Both the position numbers and the translations under genes were made by a program. This document shows positions 14,674 through 32,435 of a stretch of 64,000 bases of DNA, piece by piece. The DNA is from Chitinophagales bacterium (GTDB lineage Bacteria > Bacteroidota > Bacteroidia > Chitinophagales > CAIOSU01): the NCBI GenBank assembly GCA_040877935.1, contig JBBDNB010000043.1, positions 90,109 to 154,108 on the forward strand. The letters are read 5' to 3'. The number at the start of each line of letters is the position of its first letter. Position 1 is the first letter of the stretch. A model generated the notes under the pieces. That model was not told the origin of the DNA and did no database searches. It saw only the letters and a program-made list of their open reading frames with translations.

Positions 14674-14704
14674 TTGTTTTCTGAAACATTTACTTATAGA
14701 TTTG
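14674..14704 (+). promoter_or_regulatory. promoter of the first metal operon head gene
   Basis: TTG at 14674-14676, a 20-nt spacer, then TAGATTTG at 14697-14704, matching the Bacteroidota -33/-7 pattern. The box overlaps a TTG that could otherwise extend the next gene upstream, which supports the ATG at 14729 as the real start. Confidence 0.65.
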
Positions 14705-14728
14705 CAACAATTCAAACCGCTTAACAGC

Positions 14729-15148
14729 ATGAGAATGCTCAAACCTTTCATATCAGCCCTTTTAGTTCTGACCTATTCTATTGGGTTTGCGCACAATCTT
14801 ATTCCACACTGTCATGAATTGCATAAAGAGACACATTCTAAAGACCACAACAGTGTAAATCATGTAGATGAGGAGTCAGAAAAAAGATTTCTGGACTTAA
14901 TTTTTTTATTTTTCAGCGAATTGGAGCACAGTTCAGATATTATAAAGTTTGAGCGCAATAAGAATACCGATAAAAGTTTTCTTAGTGATTTAGCCAAAGT
15001 TAAAACACTGGCCATTGTCGCTGCTTTTTTCCATTTGGTAGAAGTAGAACAAGAAACACCAACTACCCACAGCGAACAATTACTCGTTTACCACGCATCC
15101 TTTCAGGAAAATGCTCCATCGCGTGGTTCCCCCATTTTATCTTGCTAA
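14729..15148 (+). CDS. small His-rich exported head protein of the CDF operon
   Basis: About 139 residues from ATG 14729 (MRMLKPFISALL). Signal peptide, then a His/Cys cluster near residues 20-45 (HNLIPHCHELHKETHSKDHN) suited to metal binding, then a helical region. No known family is recognised with confidence. In position and layout it is like the head genes at 17248 and 31392: small, secreted, His-rich, first in a metal-export operon. The ATG is preferred over the TTG at 14702 because the latter falls inside the promoter. Probably a periplasmic metal buffer or sensor. Confidence 0.65.
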   Translation: MRMLKPFISALLVLTYSIGFAHNLIPHCHELHKETHSKDHNSVNHVDEESEKRFLDLIFLFFSELEHSSDIIKFERNKNTDKSFLSDLAKVKTLAIVAAFFHLVEVEQETPTTHSEQLLVYHASFQENAPSRGSPILSC

Positions 15149-17060: not shown

Positions 17061-17166
17061 TTCGCATTTTTGAAAATTTCTGCCAGCGCACATTGCACAC
17101 ATCCCGCAAACCCCACATATCCACCGCTGCAAGCCAAAGTTTGCGGGAAGAGTGCAATTTTGCGAA
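17061..17166. repeat. long bipartite palindrome upstream of the RND operon
   Basis: Three nested arm pairs: TTCGCA (17061) with TGCGAA (17161), ATTGCAC (17092) with GTGCAAT (17151-17157), and CCCGCAAAC (17103) with GTTTGCGGG (17139-17147). The last two are separated by equal 4-nt internal loops. No gene is present here. It lies between two operons of different base composition. Confidence 0.7.
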
Positions 17167-17206: not shown

Positions 17207-17242
17207 TTTGGTTTTTCAAATGCTCTATTTTCACTAATTTCG
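17207..17242 (+). promoter_or_regulatory. promoter of the first RND operon
   Basis: TAATTTCG at 17235-17242 matches TAnnTTTG at seven of eight positions. A TTTG at 17207-17210 could be the -33 element, but the 24-nt spacer is long. The GTG start of the head gene begins only 5 nt after the box, so the transcript is predicted to be leaderless or nearly so. Confidence 0.55.
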
Positions 17243-17247
17243 CAACC

Positions 17248-17571
17248 GTGCTAAAAGTTCTATCAGCCATATTATCCATTTACTTCCTGGCGCTATCTGT
17301 GGTGCCTTGTGCCGATGGCGTTGACTGTGCGGAAGTACAGGTATATCAGGAAATGCTGGCGGAACATGATCATTCTGGTCATGATCACCCGGCCGGTGAG
17401 GATCTTTGCACTCCTTTTTGTGCTTGCCAGTGTTGCCATACCAGTATTACTGTAAGTGCCTTTTTTGCTTTGAGTGAGTCGCCAAGGATGCACGCACAAC
17501 TCACATCCTTCTATTCAGAACATCCTTATTCTACTTATCCGGCTCCTCTGCTGGATCCGCCCCAGGTTTAA
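17248..17571 (+). CDS. DUF6660-like small His/Cys-rich head protein of the first RND operon
   Basis: 107 residues from GTG at 17248 (read as MLKVLSAILSIYFLALS), giving a clean signal peptide; the frame continues upstream but has no signal peptide and runs through the promoter. The mature part holds PCADGVDCAE, HDHSGHDHP and CTPFCACQCCH, a dense Cys/His set able to bind metal. It ends in DPPQV. Proteins of the DUF6660 type sit at the head of metal-efflux operons in Bacteroidota. Its stop codon lies inside a perfect inverted repeat that reaches to the next gene. Confidence 0.72.
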   Translation: MLKVLSAILSIYFLALSVVPCADGVDCAEVQVYQEMLAEHDHSGHDHPAGEDLCTPFCACQCCHTSITVSAFFALSESPRMHAQLTSFYSEHPYSTYPAPLLDPPQV

Positions 17572-17629
17572 TTCAACAAATACTTAGAGGACTCTCGTCC
17601 TCACCAACCATTTTATTGTTGAATTAAAC
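17566..17629 (+). promoter_or_regulatory. nested stem-loop linking head gene stop to RND start
   Basis: A 14-bp perfect outer stem, GTTTAATTCAACAA (17566-17579) with TTGTTGAATTAAAC (17616-17629), encloses an inner hairpin GAGGAC-TCTC-GTCCTC (17587-17602). The left arm contains the head gene's last codon and stop; the right arm ends 9 nt before the RND start. There is no T-run, so it is not an ordinary terminator. Confidence 0.8.
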
Positions 17630-17638
17630 TTTAATTTC

Positions 17639-20600
17639 ATGATTGATAAAATCATTGCTTTTTCCGTAAGGAACAAGTTCATTATCGGTCTGCTCACCCT
17701 GGTTCTTATTGGTGCCGGCATCTGGAGCATGACCAAAGTACCCATTGATGCCGTACCGGATATCACCAACAATCAGGTACAGGTTATCACCCAGGCGCCA
17801 AATCTCGGAACAGAGGATATTGAGCAGTTTGTAACCTATCCGGTGGAGGTTGCTATGGCCAACTTACCGGGAGTCATAGAGATTCGTTCTGTATCCCGCT
17901 TCGGGCTTTCAGTGGTAACCATTGTTTTTAAAGACGATATGGGCACCTACCTGCCGCGCCAGCTTGTGAGCGAAAAACTACAGGCGGTAGAAGAGGAAAT
18001 ACCGGAAGGCTTTGGCGATCCTTCCATGGGTCCTATTTCCACCGGCCTCGGTGAAATCTACCAGTACACCCTTCAGGTAGATGAGGCCTATGAAGACCAA
18101 TATTCCGCCACAGATTTGCGCACCATGCAGGATTGGATTGTACGCAGACAAATGGCTATGGTGCCGGGAGTTGTGGAGGTCAATGCTTTTGGAGGAAAAA
18201 TAAAACAGTACGAAGTTGCCGTTGATCCCGATGAACTCAGGGCCATCGACCTTACTATAACCGATGTTTTTGTGGCCCTGCAGCGAAACAACCAGAATAC
18301 GGGTGGTGCCTATATAGAAAAGAACCACTACGCCAACTTTATCCGCGGGGAAGGCCTCGTCCGTAGTCTTGACGACTTGCGGGATATCGTAGTGAAAACG
18401 TTGGACGGAGTGCCTATCCGCATCAAGGATATTGCTGAAGTGCAGTTTGGAAATGCTGTGCGCTACGGAGCTTTTACCAAAGATGGTAAGGGTGAGGCGG
18501 TGGGAGGCATGATCCTGATGCTCAAAGGCGCCAATTCCAACGAAGTGATAGAGGAGGTGAAGGAGCGGGTGGCACAGATCCAGGGATCTCTTCCCGATGG
18601 TGTTACAATCGAACCCTTTCTTGACCGCAGCGAACTTATTGCCGAAACCACCGGCACCGTTACCGGCAATCTGTTGGAAGGCGCTCTGATCGTAATTTTT
18701 GTGCTGGTGTTCCTGTTGGGCAACTGGCGCGGTGGACTTATTGTGGCTTCTACCATTCCGCTGTCGCTGCTTTTCGCCTTTATCCTGATGCATGTGTTTG
18801 GCGTATGGGCCAACCTGATGAGCCTCGGAGCCATCGACTTCGGGATAATTGTAGATGGTGCCGTGATAATTGTGGAAGGTACTGTGTTCTTCCTGGTTCA
18901 GAAGATGGGAATAGGTAAAAAGCGCTTCACTCAGCAAGAGCGTGATGAAACGACCATTAAGGCTTCTTCCAAAATGATGAACTCTGCATTTTTTGGCCAG
19001 CTTATCATTTTGATCGTGTTTCTGCCCATTCTCTTTCTTGAAGGTGTAGAAGGCAAAATGTTCCAACCGATGGCGCTCACCTTCATGTTTGCCATGATCG
19101 GTGCCATGATACTATGCCTCACTTATGTACCGATGATTTCCGCCCTGTTTATCAGGGTAAAACCGGAAGAGAAGAAGTCGTGGGGAGATCGTATTGTTAT
19201 TTGGCTGGAAGAAAAATATGAGCGGGCTTTGGGAGGCACCCTTCGAAAAGCGGGCCTGGTCATAGGTTCGGCTGTAGTATTATTGATACTTGCCGTATTT
19301 ACGTTTACCCGAATGGGTGGCGAATTTATTCCACAATTGGACGAGGGTGACATTGCTTTTCACATTATCCTGAAGCCGGGAAGTTCCCTTTCCGAAAGCA
19401 TCGAAACTTCCACCCGGATTGAAAAGATCATTCTGGAAGACTTCCCCGAAGTGCAACACGCCATGACGCGTTTTGGAGTGGCCGATGTCCCCACCGATCC
19501 CATGCCTATGGATATTGGAGACTGCTTCCTGATTCTCAAACCGCAGGATGAGTGGGTTTCGGCAGACACTAAAGAAGAGCTGATAATTAAAATTAAAGAA
19601 GCACTAAGTATCGTTCCTGGGGTAAACTATGAATTTACCCAACCCATTGAAATGCGCTTTAATGAACTACTCACCGGTGTACGTGAGGATATCGCGATAA
19701 AACTTTATGGTGAAGACCTGCAGGTATTGGCCGATAAAGCCGAAGAAATGGGTCAAATTATTTCCACTGTAGAGGGTGTAGGCGATATGCGCGTGGAAGC
19801 TACCAGCGGCCTGCCTCAAATGACGGTAAAATATGATCGTGCCGACCTGGCCCAATATGGCCTGAATATCTCAAGCGTAAATCAAGTGATTCAATCTGCC
19901 TTTGCGGGTGGAAAAGCCGGGGTGATCTTTGAGGGTGAGAAAAGATTTGACCTGGTGGTTCGCCTTGATTCAGCACATCGCAGCAATATTGATGACCTGA
20001 AGAATCTTTACGTGAATACTCCAACTGGTGCGCAAATACCCTTGAATGAGGTAGCCGACATCAGCTACGAACCCGGCCCGATGCAGATCAGCCGCGACAA
20101 TACCAATCGCAGGACTTATGTGGGGGTAAATGTGCGTGGCCGTGACGTTAAATCATTGGTGGAAGAAATCCAGCAGAAGCTGAACGCTCAACTTGATCTT
20201 CCGGCCGGATACTACATCCGCTACGGGGGAGCTTTTGAAAACCTGGAACGCGCTACAAATCGGTTACAGATAGTGGTTCCCCTGGCGCTGGCACTGATAT
20301 TCATCCTGATTTTCTTCGCTCTTAGGAGCTTCAAACAAAGTATCATGATCTATATGGCTATCCCCCTCGCTGCCATTGGTGGGGTATTCGCCCTATGGTT
20401 GAGGGACATGCCTTTTAGCATTTCTGCAGGTGTTGGGTTTATTGTGCTTTTTGGGGTGGCCGTACTCAACGGATTGGTACTTATCAGTGGCTGGAATGAA
20501 CTTAAAGAAGAAGGGGAAATGGATTTAAGTAAAAGGATCAAAGACGGAGCAAGACGAAGGGTGCGACCAATTTTACTAACTGCACTCACAGATATTCTTG

Positions 20601-21988
20601 GCTTCCTTCCCATGGCACTTTCAGTATCAGCAGGAGCAGAAGTACAACGTCCATTGGCCACTGTAGTGATCGGGGGAATGATTACTGCTACCCTTTTAAC
20701 ATTGTTCGTATTGCCCATACTTTATCGCTGGACAGAAAAAAGATCACTCAATCCTTCCGGTGCGGGTATAGCCACAGTTGTTGTAATTCTGGGCTTCACT
20801 GTATTTGCGCCAACTACTGTCAGTGCTCAGAATGCGGGAGAACTTCCCGAAATATCCATGGAAGAAGCTGTAAACCGTGCGGTGTCTTCTTACCCCACAT
20901 TACAAGCAGCCCGCCTTGAAATAGAACAACAAGAGGCATTGAAGAAAACCGCCTGGGATTTTGGAAATACTCAACTATTTACTGGTGGGGAAGAAATAGG
21001 TGATGGTACAGGGGTTTACACCACCATTGGCATACAGCAGCAACAAATGGACATCTTTGGTATTGCCCCAAAACTGAAAGCCCGGAAAAGTCAGGTGGCT
21101 CTTGCAGAAGCTGCACTAAATCTGAGCAAATTGGAATTGCAGCAAAAGGTGAAAGAGGCTTATGCCAACGCATGGATCGCCCGGCAGAATTACCAGCTAT
21201 ATCAAAGGCTGGATTCCATTTATCAGAATTTTCAGCGAGGTGCCAGGCTCAGATACGAGGTTGAGGAAACTTCTAAGCTCGCCTTTTTGGCGGCTTCGAA
21301 CCAGGTGAAACAAATGACCTTGCAAAAGGAGCAGGCCGCTTTTGATTATCAAACATCTCTCTACAAGCTCAACCTTTGGTTAGTGAACGACTCCGTGTTT
21401 ACAGTAGTGGATTCACAATCCGAAAATTGGGCAAACTCCATTCTGCCGCCTGATTCGCTCAGCTCTCACCCCAGGCTAAGTATGGCAGCCCAACAGGTGG
21501 AGGTGGCTAATGCCGAACGCAAAGCCGCTAATACCGACTTCCTTCCCAAATTGAATGCACAATACGGCATTCAGGAAATTAGTGGGCAAAGTGGTTTTTA
21601 TCAATACCAGGTAGGGCTCACCATTCCTTTATTATTTTTTATGAAGGAACAAGGGCGGGCTCAGGCTGCCCGTATTGAGCAGGAAATAGCTGAGCAAAAC
21701 CTGAGGCAAACCCAATTTGAGCTGAGGGCTGAATACCTTTCACTATTGCAAGAGTATGAAAAATGGCAGGCTTCATGGCTGTTCTACGAACAGGAAGCTT
21801 TACCCCTGGCCCGCGAACAGCGCAAAGGGGCAATTTTAGCTTATGAAGAAGGAGGTATCGATTACGTATCCTTTATTCAAAACCTAAAGGAAAGCCTGCA
21901 GGTGGAAGTAAAAGCACGGGAAGCATTGCAAGAGTATCTGCAAGCCCGTTTCCAATTGGAATATTACCTCAATTCATCAAACCAGTAA
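17639..21988 (+). CDS. heavy-metal RND pump (CzcA/CusA type) fused to a TolC-like outer-membrane domain
   Basis: 1449 residues. Residues ~1-1035 are a full HME-RND pump: VPIDAVPDITNNQVQV at the start, large periplasmic loops and 12 membrane helices. TM4 carries DFGIIVDGAVIIVE, the signature of divalent-cation (Zn/Co/Cd/Ni) pumps. Residues ~1041-1063 form a hydrophobic segment ending VSA-Q1064, like a signal peptide. Residues 1064-1449 are a TolC/CzcC-type outer-membrane efflux protein with coiled-coil helices (RLEIEQQEALKKTAWDFGN...). The fused half is as long as the separate TolC of the second operon (394 aa). The adaptor gene starts 11 nt downstream. Confidence 0.9.
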   Translation: MIDKIIAFSVRNKFIIGLLTLVLIGAGIWSMTKVPIDAVPDITNNQVQVITQAPNLGTEDIEQFVTYPVEVAMANLPGVIEIRSVSRFGLSVVTIVFKDDMGTYLPRQLVSEKLQAVEEEIPEGFGDPSMGPISTGLGEIYQYTLQVDEAYEDQYSATDLRTMQDWIVRRQMAMVPGVVEVNAFGGKIKQYEVAVDPDELRAIDLTITDVFVALQRNNQNTGGAYIEKNHYANFIRGEGLVRSLDDLRDIVVKTLDGVPIRIKDIAEVQFGNAVRYGAFTKDGKGEAVGGMILMLKGANSNEVIEEVKERVAQIQGSLPDGVTIEPFLDRSELIAETTGTVTGNLLEGALIVIFVLVFLLGNWRGGLIVASTIPLSLLFAFILMHVFGVWANLMSLGAIDFGIIVDGAVIIVEGTVFFLVQKMGIGKKRFTQQERDETTIKASSKMMNSAFFGQLIILIVFLPILFLEGVEGKMFQPMALTFMFAMIGAMILCLTYVPMISALFIRVKPEEKKSWGDRIVIWLEEKYERALGGTLRKAGLVIGSAVVLLILAVFTFTRMGGEFIPQLDEGDIAFHIILKPGSSLSESIETSTRIEKIILEDFPEVQHAMTRFGVADVPTDPMPMDIGDCFLILKPQDEWVSADTKEELIIKIKEALSIVPGVNYEFTQPIEMRFNELLTGVREDIAIKLYGEDLQVLADKAEEMGQIISTVEGVGDMRVEATSGLPQMTVKYDRADLAQYGLNISSVNQVIQSAFAGGKAGVIFEGEKRFDLVVRLDSAHRSNIDDLKNLYVNTPTGAQIPLNEVADISYEPGPMQISRDNTNRRTYVGVNVRGRDVKSLVEEIQQKLNAQLDLPAGYYIRYGGAFENLERATNRLQIVVPLALALIFILIFFALRSFKQSIMIYMAIPLAAIGGVFALWLRDMPFSISAGVGFIVLFGVAVLNGLVLISGWNELKEEGEMDLSKRIKDGARRRVRPILLTALTDILGFLPMALSVSAGAEVQRPLATVVIGGMITATLLTLFVLPILYRWTEKRSLNPSGAGIATVVVILGFTVFAPTTVSAQNAGELPEISMEEAVNRAVSSYPTLQAARLEIEQQEALKKTAWDFGNTQLFTGGEEIGDGTGVYTTIGIQQQQMDIFGIAPKLKARKSQVALAEAALNLSKLELQQKVKEAYANAWIARQNYQLYQRLDSIYQNFQRGARLRYEVEETSKLAFLAASNQVKQMTLQKEQAAFDYQTSLYKLNLWLVNDSVFTVVDSQSENWANSILPPDSLSSHPRLSMAAQQVEVANAERKAANTDFLPKLNAQYGIQEISGQSGFYQYQVGLTIPLLFFMKEQGRAQAARIEQEIAEQNLRQTQFELRAEYLSLLQEYEKWQASWLFYEQEALPLAREQRKGAILAYEEGGIDYVSFIQNLKESLQVEVKAREALQEYLQARFQLEYYLNSSNQ

Positions 21989-21999
21989 AAAAGAAAAAC

Positions 22000-23208
22000 A
22001 TGAAATTCAAAATAAATAATATCATCATTGTATTGTGTGCTACCTTTCTTTTAGCGGCTTGTAATAGTAAGTCACCTGATACTCACGATCACGGAGAAGA
22101 AAAGCAGGGGCATGAAGATGAACACGGTCACACCGAACATGAAGGGGAAGGCGAAAGCGTTCATCTTTCTCAGGCGCAATTCAAAGCCTTGGAAATGCAG
22201 GTAGGTCCGGTTCCCCGAAAAAACCTCTCCAATATAGTTGAAGCCAACGGAGAACTTGAGGTTCCTCCAAAAAATGAGGCAACGGTGACCGCTATTTTAG
22301 GTGCCAATATATCAAGCATCGAAATTATTGAAGGAGATGATGTACAAAAAGGACAGGTGCTGGCTTATCTCTCCCACCCGAATATCATTGAACTTCAGCG
22401 CAGTTATCTGGAATCATTTAACCGCGAAGCATTTCTTGAGCAGGAGTACAATCGTCAGCAAAAGCTGTATGAGGAAGAGGTGGGTTCCGGAAAAGCTTTT
22501 CAGCAAACTACGGCCGATTATCGCTCAGCACAGGCCACAGTAAAAAGTTATGAAGCACAACTTCGGCAGTTGGGAATCAATCCTGAAAAGATACAGGAAG
22601 GCGACTTTTACAACCGCATTCCCGTGGTAAGTCCTATCAAAGGCTCCATTACTAAAGTGGAAGTGAAAACCGGTCAGTATGTGCAGCCGCAGAATGATCT
22701 TTTCGAGATTGTAAACATTGATCATATCCATGCAGACCTTATGGTTTTTGAAAAAGATGTGCACAAAGTAAATGAAGGGCAGCGTGTCCGATTTACGGTT
22801 GAGACTATGCCCGGTAAGGAGCTTTATGCTGAAATTTACTCCGTGGGGAAAAAGTTTGAGCAAGATCCTAAAGCTATTCACGTCCATGCTGAAATCGAGA
22901 ATGAGTTGGGTAAGTTAATTCCCGGCATGTATGTGCGCGGGGAGATACTCACCGACAGCATTACTTCACTTGCCTTACCCGAAAGCGCCATTACCCGTGA
23001 GGGTGACGATTACCTGGCTTTTACAGCCGCAAAAGAAGGTGAAGAGTGGATGTTTGCACCCGTGAGAGTAACCATCGGAACCAAAAGCAATGGCTGGGTG
23101 GCTGTCAATTTTTTGGATGCCGTGCCCGAAGACACACAATTTGCCCTCAACAATGCCTACTATTTGATAGCGGAAATGAAAAAAGGTGAAGGCGGCCACC
23201 ATCATTAA
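22000..23208 (+). CDS. RND periplasmic adaptor (CzcB/CusB type) lipoprotein
   Basis: 402 residues. Lipoprotein signal (FLLAACNS), then a His/Glu-rich stretch (HDHGEEKQGHEDEHGHTEHE) likely to bind metal. A membrane-fusion-protein body follows: a barrel-sandwich hybrid half (IEIIEGDDVQKGQVLAYLSHP), alpha-hairpin (residues ~125-180), second lipoyl half (VVSPIKGSITKVEVKTGQYV), beta-barrel (GKELYAEIYSVGKKF) and membrane-proximal domain. It ends in GGHHH. It links the inner-membrane pump to the outer-membrane channel. A paralogue survives only as 3' fragments at 24888-25104 and 32025-32435. Confidence 0.9.
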   Translation: MKFKINNIIIVLCATFLLAACNSKSPDTHDHGEEKQGHEDEHGHTEHEGEGESVHLSQAQFKALEMQVGPVPRKNLSNIVEANGELEVPPKNEATVTAILGANISSIEIIEGDDVQKGQVLAYLSHPNIIELQRSYLESFNREAFLEQEYNRQQKLYEEEVGSGKAFQQTTADYRSAQATVKSYEAQLRQLGINPEKIQEGDFYNRIPVVSPIKGSITKVEVKTGQYVQPQNDLFEIVNIDHIHADLMVFEKDVHKVNEGQRVRFTVETMPGKELYAEIYSVGKKFEQDPKAIHVHAEIENELGKLIPGMYVRGEILTDSITSLALPESAITREGDDYLAFTAAKEGEEWMFAPVRVTIGTKSNGWVAVNFLDAVPEDTQFALNNAYYLIAEMKKGEGGHHH

Positions 23209-30140: not shown

Positions 30141-31325
30141 TTACAATTGATGTTTTAATAATTCCGCCCTGAGTTGCCGGAGTTCCTTCTCAATTTCCAG
30201 CATCCGGTTTTCCGCTTCGCGGTAAAAGGTAACTTCGCGGTAATAGTCCATAAAGGAAATCTCACCCAGTTCATAGGAACTTTTAAGAAGAACTTCGCTG
30301 TTCAACCCGGACAGTGCTACTTCGTATTCTCTAAATTTTTTAAGCAACAGTTGATAGCGTTGTACCTGCGATGAAAACTCACTTTTCAAAGAGGTAATCA
30401 CATCAGATTGGCGCTGATCGCGGTAGTTGATTTGCGCTTCTGCCATCTTTACTTTACTGCGGCCGCTCCAAAGCGGAATACTGATACCACCATAAAAACC
30501 CGAGTAATTGTTTCCGGCCACCCCCTGCTGGTTGTAACCGGCTGTAATGTCCGGCAAAAGCTGATTTCGCTCTACTTTCAAGCGTTGCTCAGCCACTTGT
30601 TTTTCCCGTTCTAAAAGGGAGATTTGCGCATCTCTTATTAACCGTTCATTCCAAAGGCTGTCAGGAACAGGAATTTCCATGTTGTTGGGGTAAGAATTTA
30701 ACTGAAGCCTGACTTCGTTTCCACCATTCAGAGCTTTTAATTCTTGTTTTACATTCGTCTCGCGGGTATTCAGTTCTTCCAGTGCAAACTGTTGATCCAG
30801 CCAAATGATTCTGGCTTTATTCCTGTCAAGAATACCGCTCTGGCCTTTTTCAAACAAGGTTTCTACCTGCTCATACACCTTTTTGGATTGGGTTACCCGC
30901 TCCTGAACCAACTCGCGCTGCTTTTGCAGGTAAACCCATTCCACCCCAAGCTTTTTCGCCTTCAGGAGAATGTCCTGTTTTAGCTTTTGATATTCCTGTT
31001 CCAGTCGCTCTTGCTGCTCGTCTATCCAGTTGCCTCTGCTGGTGTATACGGTGGGAAATTCTATGCGTTGTGAGATTTGAAATTCACTGTAATTGCCTGT
31101 AGTGTGCTCACCAAAAGGAAGATAAAAAGCATCAGCCTGCGGATCGGGAAGCCTGTTTTGCGATTTATACTGCCAATTTTCACCTTCCATATAGCTTCGG
31201 TAGGCTGCAAGTGATTTGTTGTTGGCTTCTACAGTTTGCAATACTTCCTCTAAAGTCGAGTATTGCGCCTTTACGGCACTTACGCATAGGGTAAGTGCCA
31301 GCACGAGAAAAAATGATTTATGCAT
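30141..31325 (-). CDS. TolC/CzcC-family outer-membrane efflux protein
   Basis: 394 residues, signal peptide (ends near VKAQ), and two similar long helical halves with TolC-type repeats (LEEVLQTVEANNKSLAAYRS..., LIRDAQISLLEREKQVAEQRL...). It forms the trimeric outer-membrane channel for the second RND pump. It is second in the operon, with its start 10 nt after a large inverted repeat that begins inside the head gene's end. The counterpart in the first operon is fused to the pump. Confidence 0.88.
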   Translation of the reverse strand: MHKSFFLVLALTLCVSAVKAQYSTLEEVLQTVEANNKSLAAYRSYMEGENWQYKSQNRLPDPQADAFYLPFGEHTTGNYSEFQISQRIEFPTVYTSRGNWIDEQQERLEQEYQKLKQDILLKAKKLGVEWVYLQKQRELVQERVTQSKKVYEQVETLFEKGQSGILDRNKARIIWLDQQFALEELNTRETNVKQELKALNGGNEVRLQLNSYPNNMEIPVPDSLWNERLIRDAQISLLEREKQVAEQRLKVERNQLLPDITAGYNQQGVAGNNYSGFYGGISIPLWSGRSKVKMAEAQINYRDQRQSDVITSLKSEFSSQVQRYQLLLKKFREYEVALSGLNSEVLLKSSYELGEISFMDYYREVTFYREAENRMLEIEKELRQLRAELLKHQL

Positions 31326-31335
31326 AAATGAATTT

Positions 31336-31402
31336 CTTTAGGTTAAAATGAGAAATGCTCCCTCATAGCAGGGAGCCATTAATTCTTCGGTTTAACCTAA
31401 AG
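31336..31402 (-). promoter_or_regulatory. nested stem-loop linking head gene stop to tolC start
   Basis: A 12-bp perfect outer stem, CTTTAGGTTAAA (31402-31391) with TTTAACCTAAAG (31347-31336), encloses an inner hairpin GCTCCCT/AGGGAGC (31376-31357, 6-nt loop). The left arm contains the head gene's final codons and stop; the right arm ends 10 nt before the tolC ATG. Same plan as the element at 17566-17629, with unrelated sequence. Confidence 0.8.
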
Positions 31403-31853
31403 CAGGAGGGGCGCGGAGGCCATGCGAGGCAAAAAGCTGCTGATCGGCAAGAGGCCGGATAAATGCATATTGGTGGTAGCTACTTTCGTTCAGCTGATCC
31501 GGGAGTCTCCAATGATGTGCTGCCGGATATTGAACAACAAAATCACTCTGAGGGATTAATTTATCTTTTGAGGCAGCACGATAAGCTAGCTCATGTTGAT
31601 GCCCATCAAAATCGGAATGGCTGTGTGCGTGGATTAGCTGATTGTCCCATGGACTACTTTCTGAAGACTCAGGTGGTTTGTCCTGCTGGTGATCTTTATC
31701 ATGCGAATGATTCCCATGATGCTGATGGGCTTCAGAAACAGTTTGATCTGCTCCCTGATGATTGTGATGCGTATGGGGAATGAAATCATGCAGCAACAGG
31801 AGCGCGTAAGCACTCAGCAAAAACAAAGACAATATGTTGCGATAGGATTTCAC
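31392..31853 (-). CDS. small His-rich exported head protein of the second RND operon
   Basis: 153 residues from GTG at 31853 (read as MKSYRNILSLFLLSAYALLLLH), a good signal peptide or signal anchor. The frame extends to a TTG at 31895, but that stretch covers the promoter. The mature part is very His-rich (HTHHNHQGADQ, HQHHGNHSHDKDHQQD, HAHSHSDFDGHQHE) and ends RAPPALG. It resembles the head gene at 14729 in its first 40 residues (FIPHTHHNH versus LIPHCHELH). Likely a periplasmic metal-binding protein or metal-responsive leader for the operon. Confidence 0.7.
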   Translation of the reverse strand: MKSYRNILSLFLLSAYALLLLHDFIPHTHHNHQGADQTVSEAHQHHGNHSHDKDHQQDKPPESSESSPWDNQLIHAHSHSDFDGHQHELAYRAASKDKLIPQSDFVVQYPAAHHWRLPDQLNESSYHQYAFIRPLADQQLFASHGLRAPPALG

Positions 31854-31858
31854 GGGTA

Positions 31859-31889
31859 CAAAGGAAGTGAAAAAAGGGCAGCTTTCAAA
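31859..31889 (-). promoter_or_regulatory. promoter of the second RND operon
   Basis: On the minus strand TTTG (31889-31886), a 19-nt spacer, then TTCCTTTG (31866-31859), matching the -33/-7 pattern at all but one position. The GTG start of the head gene begins 5 nt after the box, exactly as in the first RND operon, so the mRNA is predicted to be leaderless. Confidence 0.7.
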
Positions 31890-31945
31890 ACTCAAAACTT
31901 ACTGGTTCACGACCAATTTTCGTTTTTCCCACTCTCGCCCCGCCC

Positions 31946-32024: not shown

Positions 32025-32435
32025 GGTAAAGAACTTATGGGTGAAATTTATTCTATTGGTAAAAAATTTGACAGAGTACCCAAGGCGGTTCATGTGCACG
32101 TAGAAATTGAAAATGAGTCGGGAAAGCTATTGCCTGGGATGTATGTAAGGGGACAGATTCTGACAGGAAGTGCAGAATCCTATGTTTTGCCTCAAAGTGC
32201 AGTTACACGGGATGGTGACCACTATGTTGCTTTTATTGCAGAGAAAGAAATGAAACAAACAGAGGAGCTTTGGAGCTTTATCCCCATAAGGGTAGTAAGC
32301 GGTACAATAGAAAATGAATGGATTGCTGTTGATTTTATGGATGACATTAATGAGAAAACCCTGTTTGCTATGAATAATGCATATTATCTATTGGCAGAAT
32401 TGCACAAAGGAGAAGGAGGGGGGCACCATCATTAG
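32025..32435 (+). pseudogene. 3' third of an RND adaptor (CzcB) gene
   Basis: The frame from 32025 (GKELMGEIYSIGKKFDR...) matches the last third of the intact adaptor at 22000-23208 (GKELYAEIYSVGKKFEQ...) to its GGGHHH end. An ATG at 32037 exists but would yield only the membrane-proximal part, with no signal peptide. Homology begins about 16 bases after the 64-bp repeat. The last ~205 bases are duplicated at 24898-25104. Confidence 0.85.
32229..32435 (+). repeat. ~205-bp direct repeat, right copy
   Basis: Partner of 24898-25104 (offset 7331, same orientation). It is the end of an adaptor gene; the two copies enclose the whole second RND operon. Confidence 0.88.

Follow-up and report, generated by a model that had tools for sequence, protein, structure and literature searches.

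The system closest to the one described here is CutF of R. capsulatus, an exported nascent chain which binds copper and has a proline-rich C-terminus, with a stem which shields the start of cutO (PMC9973294). Its logic is supported by experiments: copper prolongs the pause, the stem opens and CutO is made. The CutF tail by itself did not produce a stall in a LepB fusion (PMC9973294). The authors' list of CutF-like proteins takes in many Bacteroidota and RND neighbours (PMC9973294), so DUF6660 proteins, the subject of this work, may be among its entries. CruR of Bordetella pertussis, a DUF2946 protein, is Rho-dependent and acts over a gap of 162 nt; copper relieves its arrest and the uptake operon is turned off (PMC9426467). 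RAPP and RGPP are established arrest motifs, and their survey did not find copper-related uORFs in Bacteroidota (PMC10951233, PMC12992588). In SecM, VemP, MifM and the Sec-linked uORFs of Bacteroidota ending in NAP-stop or NSP-stop, translation of an exported leader pauses close to its C-terminus, which opens a stem downstream; uORFs ending in proline exist in Bacteroidota (PMC10987492). Our literature search found no paper on DUF6660 and no post-transcriptional sensor for the metal-efflux pumps of Bacteroidota.

The window, which is the whole stretch of 64,000 nt analyzed, contains two efflux operons headed by small leader genes. Head gene 1 (17248–17571, forward strand, GTG start at 17248 and TAA stop at 17569–17571) codes for a protein of 107 amino acids. 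The original prediction called this gene DUF6660-like, and it does match Pfam PF20365 (DUF6660), with E = 1e-13 and 52 bits, compared with a gathering cut-off of 27. The protein has a hydrophobic N-terminus, a CTPFCACQCC cluster and the C-terminus LLDPPQV-stop. In alignment A3, the hydrophobic N-terminus is followed by a conserved PC.D. The next gene (17639–21988, forward strand), which had been called an RND pump, indeed codes for a CusA/CzcA-family pump (TIGR00914, 1224.8 bits; PF00873) fused to a TolC-type (OEP) domain (PF02321). It is followed by an RND periplasmic adaptor at 22000–23208 on the same strand (TIGR01730, E = 2.6e-38). Farther along the forward strand, the ORF at 32037–32435 resembles the C-terminal part of this adaptor (GEIYSIGKKFDRVPKAVHVHVEIENE...), and is likely a remnant of a duplicated efflux operon.

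The gap between head gene 1 and the pump is 67 nt long and contains a nested stem-loop, all on the forward strand, whose predicted features we find as described. The left arm of the outer stem, GTTTAATTCAACAA (17566–17579), includes the last codon GTT and the stop TAA of the head gene. The right arm, TTGTTGAATTAAAC (17616–17629), ends 9 nt (17630–17638) before the ATG of the pump at 17639. The arms are complementary in 14 of 14 positions, and the helix may be extended to 16 pairs with one G-U. The second stem nested inside is a hairpin of 6 bp, GAGGAC-TCTC-GTCCTC, at 17587–17602 (stem 17587–17592/17597–17602). The minimum free energy of the junction is −33.6 kcal/mol, compared with −17.25 ± 3.08 for shuffled sequences (z = −5.31; none of 200 shuffles is as good). 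The control with ordinary gene pairs comprised 22 co-directional neighbours, all of them within the window: the stop-spanning helix has 16 bp in operon 1 and 12 bp in operon 2, and 3–9 bp in the other 20 pairs. No Rfam covariance model matches anywhere in the window at its gathering score.

A matching element had been proposed for the second operon, which lies on the reverse strand, and it is present. Head gene 2 (31392–31895 for the ORF as listed, although GTG 31847 is the more likely start) codes for an unnamed His-rich leader protein ending in LRAPPALG-stop. Its outer stem has a left arm, CTTTAGGTTAAA (31402–31391), with the stop TAA (31394–31392) inside, and a right arm, TTTAACCTAAAG (31347–31336), which ends 10 nt before ATG 31325. 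These arms are complementary in 12 of 12 positions and enclose an inner hairpin of 7 bp (GCTCCCT / AGGGAGC, 31376–31370/31363–31357). The controlled gene, after a gap of 66 nt, codes for a TolC-type outer-membrane efflux protein (30141–31325; PF02321, E = 8.5e-22) and is the first of an RND operon.

Searched against the phylum, the operon-2 protein on its own brought up few true relatives; a four-row profile yielded more, together with a paralogue in the window. The relatives we have used are L032 and L147–L150; two further candidates, L035 and L036, look spurious. L032, L147, L149 and L150 end in R-G-P-P-[SA]-L-G. These four, as well as L145 (with a PPP tail) and L037 (with a QPP tail), also carry stems which span the stop or lie next to it. 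Compared with the DUF2946 profile, the best value in this head family is only E = 0.81, for one member. The paralogue in the window is a third leader-like gene at 14702–15148 on the forward strand (profile E = 3.6e-5), which ends in NAPSRGSPILSC; after it come genes for a small lipoprotein-like protein, a DUF2231 protein and a cation-efflux (CDF) protein. We sought a stop-spanning stem at this gene and found none; strong local hairpins are found after its stop.

Across the phylum, 54 of 296 sampled genomes have DUF6660 genes; within the same order the figure is 101 of 249. In 120 junctions a downstream start could be read, and in 109 of these the next gene is an RND pump, judging from its N-terminal pattern. 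For each junction with a gap of up to 180 nt, the score is that of the best helix which the stop region can form with the last 42 nt ahead of the next start. The null was obtained by swapping right arms between loci, which keeps composition and position. For 60 representatives below 50% identity, helices made with their own arms score 18.6, compared with 12.6 ± 0.37 for swapped arms. Helices which span the whole stop codon score 16.9 in 93 loci, compared with 10.5 ± 0.32. At least 7 bp over the stop codon are found in 67 of these 93 loci, compared with 26 expected by chance, and 26 junctions (about 28%) lack a 7-bp helix there. A second set of 68 fresh loci from another collection gives the same picture (17.6 compared with 11.2 ± 0.48; at least 7 bp in 50 loci, with 20 expected). 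The right arm ends at a median distance of 10 nt before the next start.

Some DUF6660 junctions depart from this arrangement. In L003, L052, L070, L109, L134, L136 and L141 the leader precedes a non-RND gene, whose product has an N-terminus resembling those of exported proteins of the outer-membrane receptor type. Several of these junctions keep the stem, so the lock may serve other metal genes. Another group has a gap of about 250 nt (236–274 nt; L010, L059, L072, L074, L077, L100 and others). Leader and pump appear to be separated by a small ORF in L010 and L025.

For the analysis of covariation, 17 junctions were aligned with plain MAFFT (A2), and the register of the outer stem was read off one row. 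RNAalifold found no structure on this raw alignment; the helix register was given explicitly because gap lengths vary. The outer stem is 73.9% paired, compared with 47% or less for slid registers. It has 18 two-sided changes (8.2 ± 2.3 in shuffles) and a covariation score of 0.237, compared with 0.118 ± 0.023 in shuffles and 0.092 or less for slid partners. None of 500 shuffles reaches the values for pairing, two-sided changes or covariation score. The counts of varied pairs and of pair types are not decisive (33 and 103 of 500 shuffles). Shuffles ignore relatedness, which the slid-register controls take into account. The stop codon itself covaries: TAG pairs with CTA in L052, L079, L095 and L117, and the TGA of L145 pairs with TCA. 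Absence of a conserved, covarying stem in homologous operons would have spoken against the original prediction; the stem is both conserved and covarying.

The closest relative, L153, is a MAG labelled Flavobacteriales bacterium UBA4585, whose head protein is 65% identical to ours. Identity is 91.5% over the 70 intergenic nt but falls to 67.8% in the head gene and 41% at third codon positions in the pump, so the non-coding stretch is the most constrained part. The inner hairpin is almost unchanged. The loop sequence ACCAACCATTTT (17603–17609) is identical in both, although it is unpaired.

The original prediction missed the element which probably makes this junction a sensor: a C-terminus of the arrest type, diproline or RAPP, with a Cys/His chain about 43 residues upstream. 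Every head protein examined, 203 of 203, has Pro-Pro near the C-terminus: 123 in the first set and 80 in the second, which had been selected for the Cys motif and for resemblance to the protein of the window. In DUF6660 the tail is mostly W-Q-P-P-[KQR]-x(1-3)-stop, with W in 112 of 123 proteins and 2–4 residues after PP in 118 of 123. From the last Cys of the motif CxPxCxCxCC to the second Pro there are 41–47 residues, 42 in the window protein. All four Pro codons are seen at both PP positions, so selection acts on the peptide and not on the RNA alone. In head gene 1 the codons are CCG CCC (17557–17562, forward strand), the proposed pause site. Neither RAPP nor RGPP is present in this gene, whose tail is DPPQV; its relatives mostly have QPP. 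The head gene of operon 2 does have an arrest motif of that type, RAPP (RAPPALG), near its C-terminus. Among the features which define CutF-like proteins are a length below 150 amino acids and PP in the last 15 residues (PMC9973294), and the product of head gene 1, with 107 amino acids and DPPQV, has both. The CxPxCxCxCC motif upstream of the tail is a putative metal-binding site, and a stem-loop shielding the downstream start, another CutF-like feature, is indicated by prediction and comparative evidence. As to the metal, the Cys cluster suggests Cu(I), while the His-rich parts would fit Zn, Co or Ni.

Taking the 3' edge of the ribosome as +15, a ribosome whose P site holds the second Pro covers a median of 70% of the left arm; in 109 of 113 loci the covered share is half or more. 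For head gene 1 of the window its edge lies at approximately 17575, which leaves four of the 14 pairs. When the ribosome stretch is masked in folding, the unpaired probability at −20 to +5 of the pump start rises by a mean of 0.12, compared with 0.007 in controls (Wilcoxon p = 2e-11). The opening is above 0.15 in 37 of 93 loci and in none of the controls; in the window the value goes from 0.29 to 0.44. Bacteroidota initiate translation without Shine-Dalgarno sequences, and in Flavobacterium johnsoniae the structure between about −20 and +20 tunes initiation (PMC6847099), so a helix near the pump start should matter. In the original prediction, a ribosome finishing the head gene would cover the left arm and free the pump start. 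This logic, which would make the junction a switch, is supported by the conservation, the covariation and the modelled accessibility in many Bacteroidota.

The region upstream of the head genes also has characteristic features. A probable Bacteroidota −7 promoter box, TAATTTCG, is found at 17235–17242 (forward strand), with one mismatch to the TAnnTTTG consensus and 5 nt before the GTG. Head gene 2 likewise has a box with one mismatch 5 nt before its GTG. An exact box is present in 89 relatives, and in 70 of them the head start lies 4–7 nt after it. The positions of these boxes suggest that the leader mRNA is probably near-leaderless, so the sensor ORF and the lock would be almost all that precedes the pump. 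A palindrome, TGCAA-N3-5-TTGCA, is found upstream of DUF6660 heads in 19 of 123 loci (0.2 expected), with N5 in 15 of the 19; these include L001, L015, L042, L050, L064, L080 and 13 more. It is often placed just before the promoter box and is possibly a transcriptional operator, a candidate second layer of metal control. This form of the palindrome is not seen in the window. Some 100 nt before head gene 1, the window has a 20-nt inverted repeat with 90% complementarity (ATTGCACACATCCCGCAAAC at 17092–17111 and GTTTGCGGGAAGAGTGCAAT at 17139–17158).

We consider it likely that head gene 1 is a cis-acting metal sensor of the CutF type, dependent on translation, whose nascent chain opens a stop-codon lock on the translation of the pump. 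The near-leaderless head mRNA would be translated and its product exported co-translationally. The ribosome would slow down or stall at the C-terminal diproline motif: DPPQV for head gene 1, W-Q-P-P-[KQR] in the majority of relatives and R-[AG]-P-P for operon 2. The Cys cluster, about 42 residues upstream, would then be near the translocon or at the periplasmic face, where it could bind metal. The paused ribosome would cover the codons up to and beyond the stop and hold the left arm open; the right arm would stay single-stranded before the pump ATG, and the pump would be translated. If the chain is pulled out fast and the ribosome leaves, the stem would close and shut the pump start. Metal should prolong the pause, rather than relieve it, and turn the pump on. 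We choose this direction because copper prolongs the pause in CutF; CruR has the opposite sign, and the sequence does not fix it. In favour of this proposal, a second, seemingly unrelated head family with an established RAPP/RGPP motif has the same lock. Against it, stalling at QPP and DPP tails is a prediction, the CutF tail failed to stall by itself, and many PP pauses are relieved by EF-P. CruR, with its opposite sign and its action through Rho, also counts against it, as do the 26 of 93 junctions with no 7-bp helix over the stop codon and the third head-like gene of the window, where a stop-spanning stem is absent.

Other explanations must be considered. An unlikely one is premature transcription termination in the style of CruR, in which a stalled ribosome shields the mRNA from Rho and its release admits Rho, metal acting in either direction. 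CruR is indeed Rho-dependent and carries a Cys motif together with a RAPP tail, and operon 2 has RAPP. However, its intergenic region has 162 nt, compared with 67 and 66 nt here, Rho does not need a stem by the start, and the genes downstream are for efflux rather than uptake. A covarying helix which spans the stop near a start is explained by control of initiation, not by Rho. Slightly less likely still, we find, is plain translational coupling, with the stem tying the pump to translation of the head and neither sensing nor a programmed stall. Any ribosome terminating at the head stop would cover the left arm. Nevertheless, plain coupling leaves unexplained the near-universal W-[QH]-P-P tail placed 2–4 residues before the stop, the 41–47 residues between Cys and PP, and the repeated pairing of PP tails with metal genes.

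The remaining alternatives concern the hairpin alone. Intercistronic hairpins often stabilise or process mRNA, and this one might be such an element, for example an RNase site setting the ratio of pump to head. We think this very improbable, as such an element needs no stop codon in its arm, no spacing of about 10 nt to the start and no PP tail. An intrinsic terminator or attenuator in the gap before the pump would fit a hairpin in the 5' region of an operon, followed here by TTTAATTTC, but it is even harder to accept. No terminator-like site was found at this junction, T is not enriched after the right arm (3.10 per 8 nt, compared with 3.23 expected), the arm has about 20% G+C and the position of the helix is tied to the next start codon. 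We have rejected it, since a G+C-rich stem with a T run is absent. Chance is the least credible explanation, with a practically negligible probability. AT-rich DNA pairs readily, and helices of at least 7 bp are expected by chance in 26 of 93 junctions, but for the family as a whole chance is ruled out by two independent permutation tests, covariation and intergenic conservation.

Like CutF, the proposed sensor would have a small exported leader, a Cys motif about 45 amino acids before a proline-rich end (41–47 in DUF6660), a short gap, a stem and a metal gene downstream. Unlike CutF, which belongs to DUF2946, the DUF6660 leader has its own stop codon in the stem, a W-Q-P-P-[KQR] tail and an RND pump instead of a multicopper oxidase as its target; a Shine-Dalgarno sequence is not expected, and the response to metal would follow by analogy. 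None of 12 DUF6660 members matches DUF2946, nor is a DUF2946 protein found in the genome, so membership in that family was rejected. DUF6660, distinct from DUF2946 by profile, would therefore resemble CutF in its way of working, while the profile search gives no sign of homology. CruR shares with our loci a leader with a Cys motif heading a metal operon and, for operon 2, a C-terminal RAPP, but a stop-spanning stem has not been described for it (PMC9426467). The operon-2 leader and its relatives, which carry R-[AG]-P-P shortly before the stop, are like the RAPP/RGPP arrest peptides ApdA, ApdP and others (PMC10951233, PMC12992588), unlike head gene 1, which has D/Q-P-P. SecM, VemP, MifM and the NAP-stop/NSP-stop uORFs share with DUF6660 the pause proposed to open a stem, but what they monitor is export rather than metal, and their targets are sec/yidC genes (PMC10987492).

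In summary, the switch had been called undescribed. Its general kind is already known from CutF (PMC9973294) and CruR, while the DUF6660 form in Bacteroidota appears to be undescribed. According to the literature searched, the covarying stop-codon lock, the W-Q-P-P-[KQR] tail and the setting without Shine-Dalgarno sequences appear to be new, and so does the sharing of the lock by two head families which are not detectably related. We lean towards a wider reading, with less assurance than for the locus itself: Bacteroidota may have phylum-wide nascent-chain metal sensors of at least two families (DUF6660 with W-Q-P-P-[KQR], and the unnamed His-rich one with R-[AG]-P-P). Both would use the same covarying stop-codon lock, without Shine-Dalgarno sequences and on near-leaderless mRNA, and W-Q-P-P-[KQR] would be a new arrest motif. 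If this is true, a widespread family of unknown function, DUF6660, gains a role, and a phylum which does not use Shine-Dalgarno sequences gains a clear case of initiation gated by structure. W-Q-P-P-[KQR] would then be a probable new arrest motif, and the results would suggest that CutF-type switches evolved convergently in different protein families.
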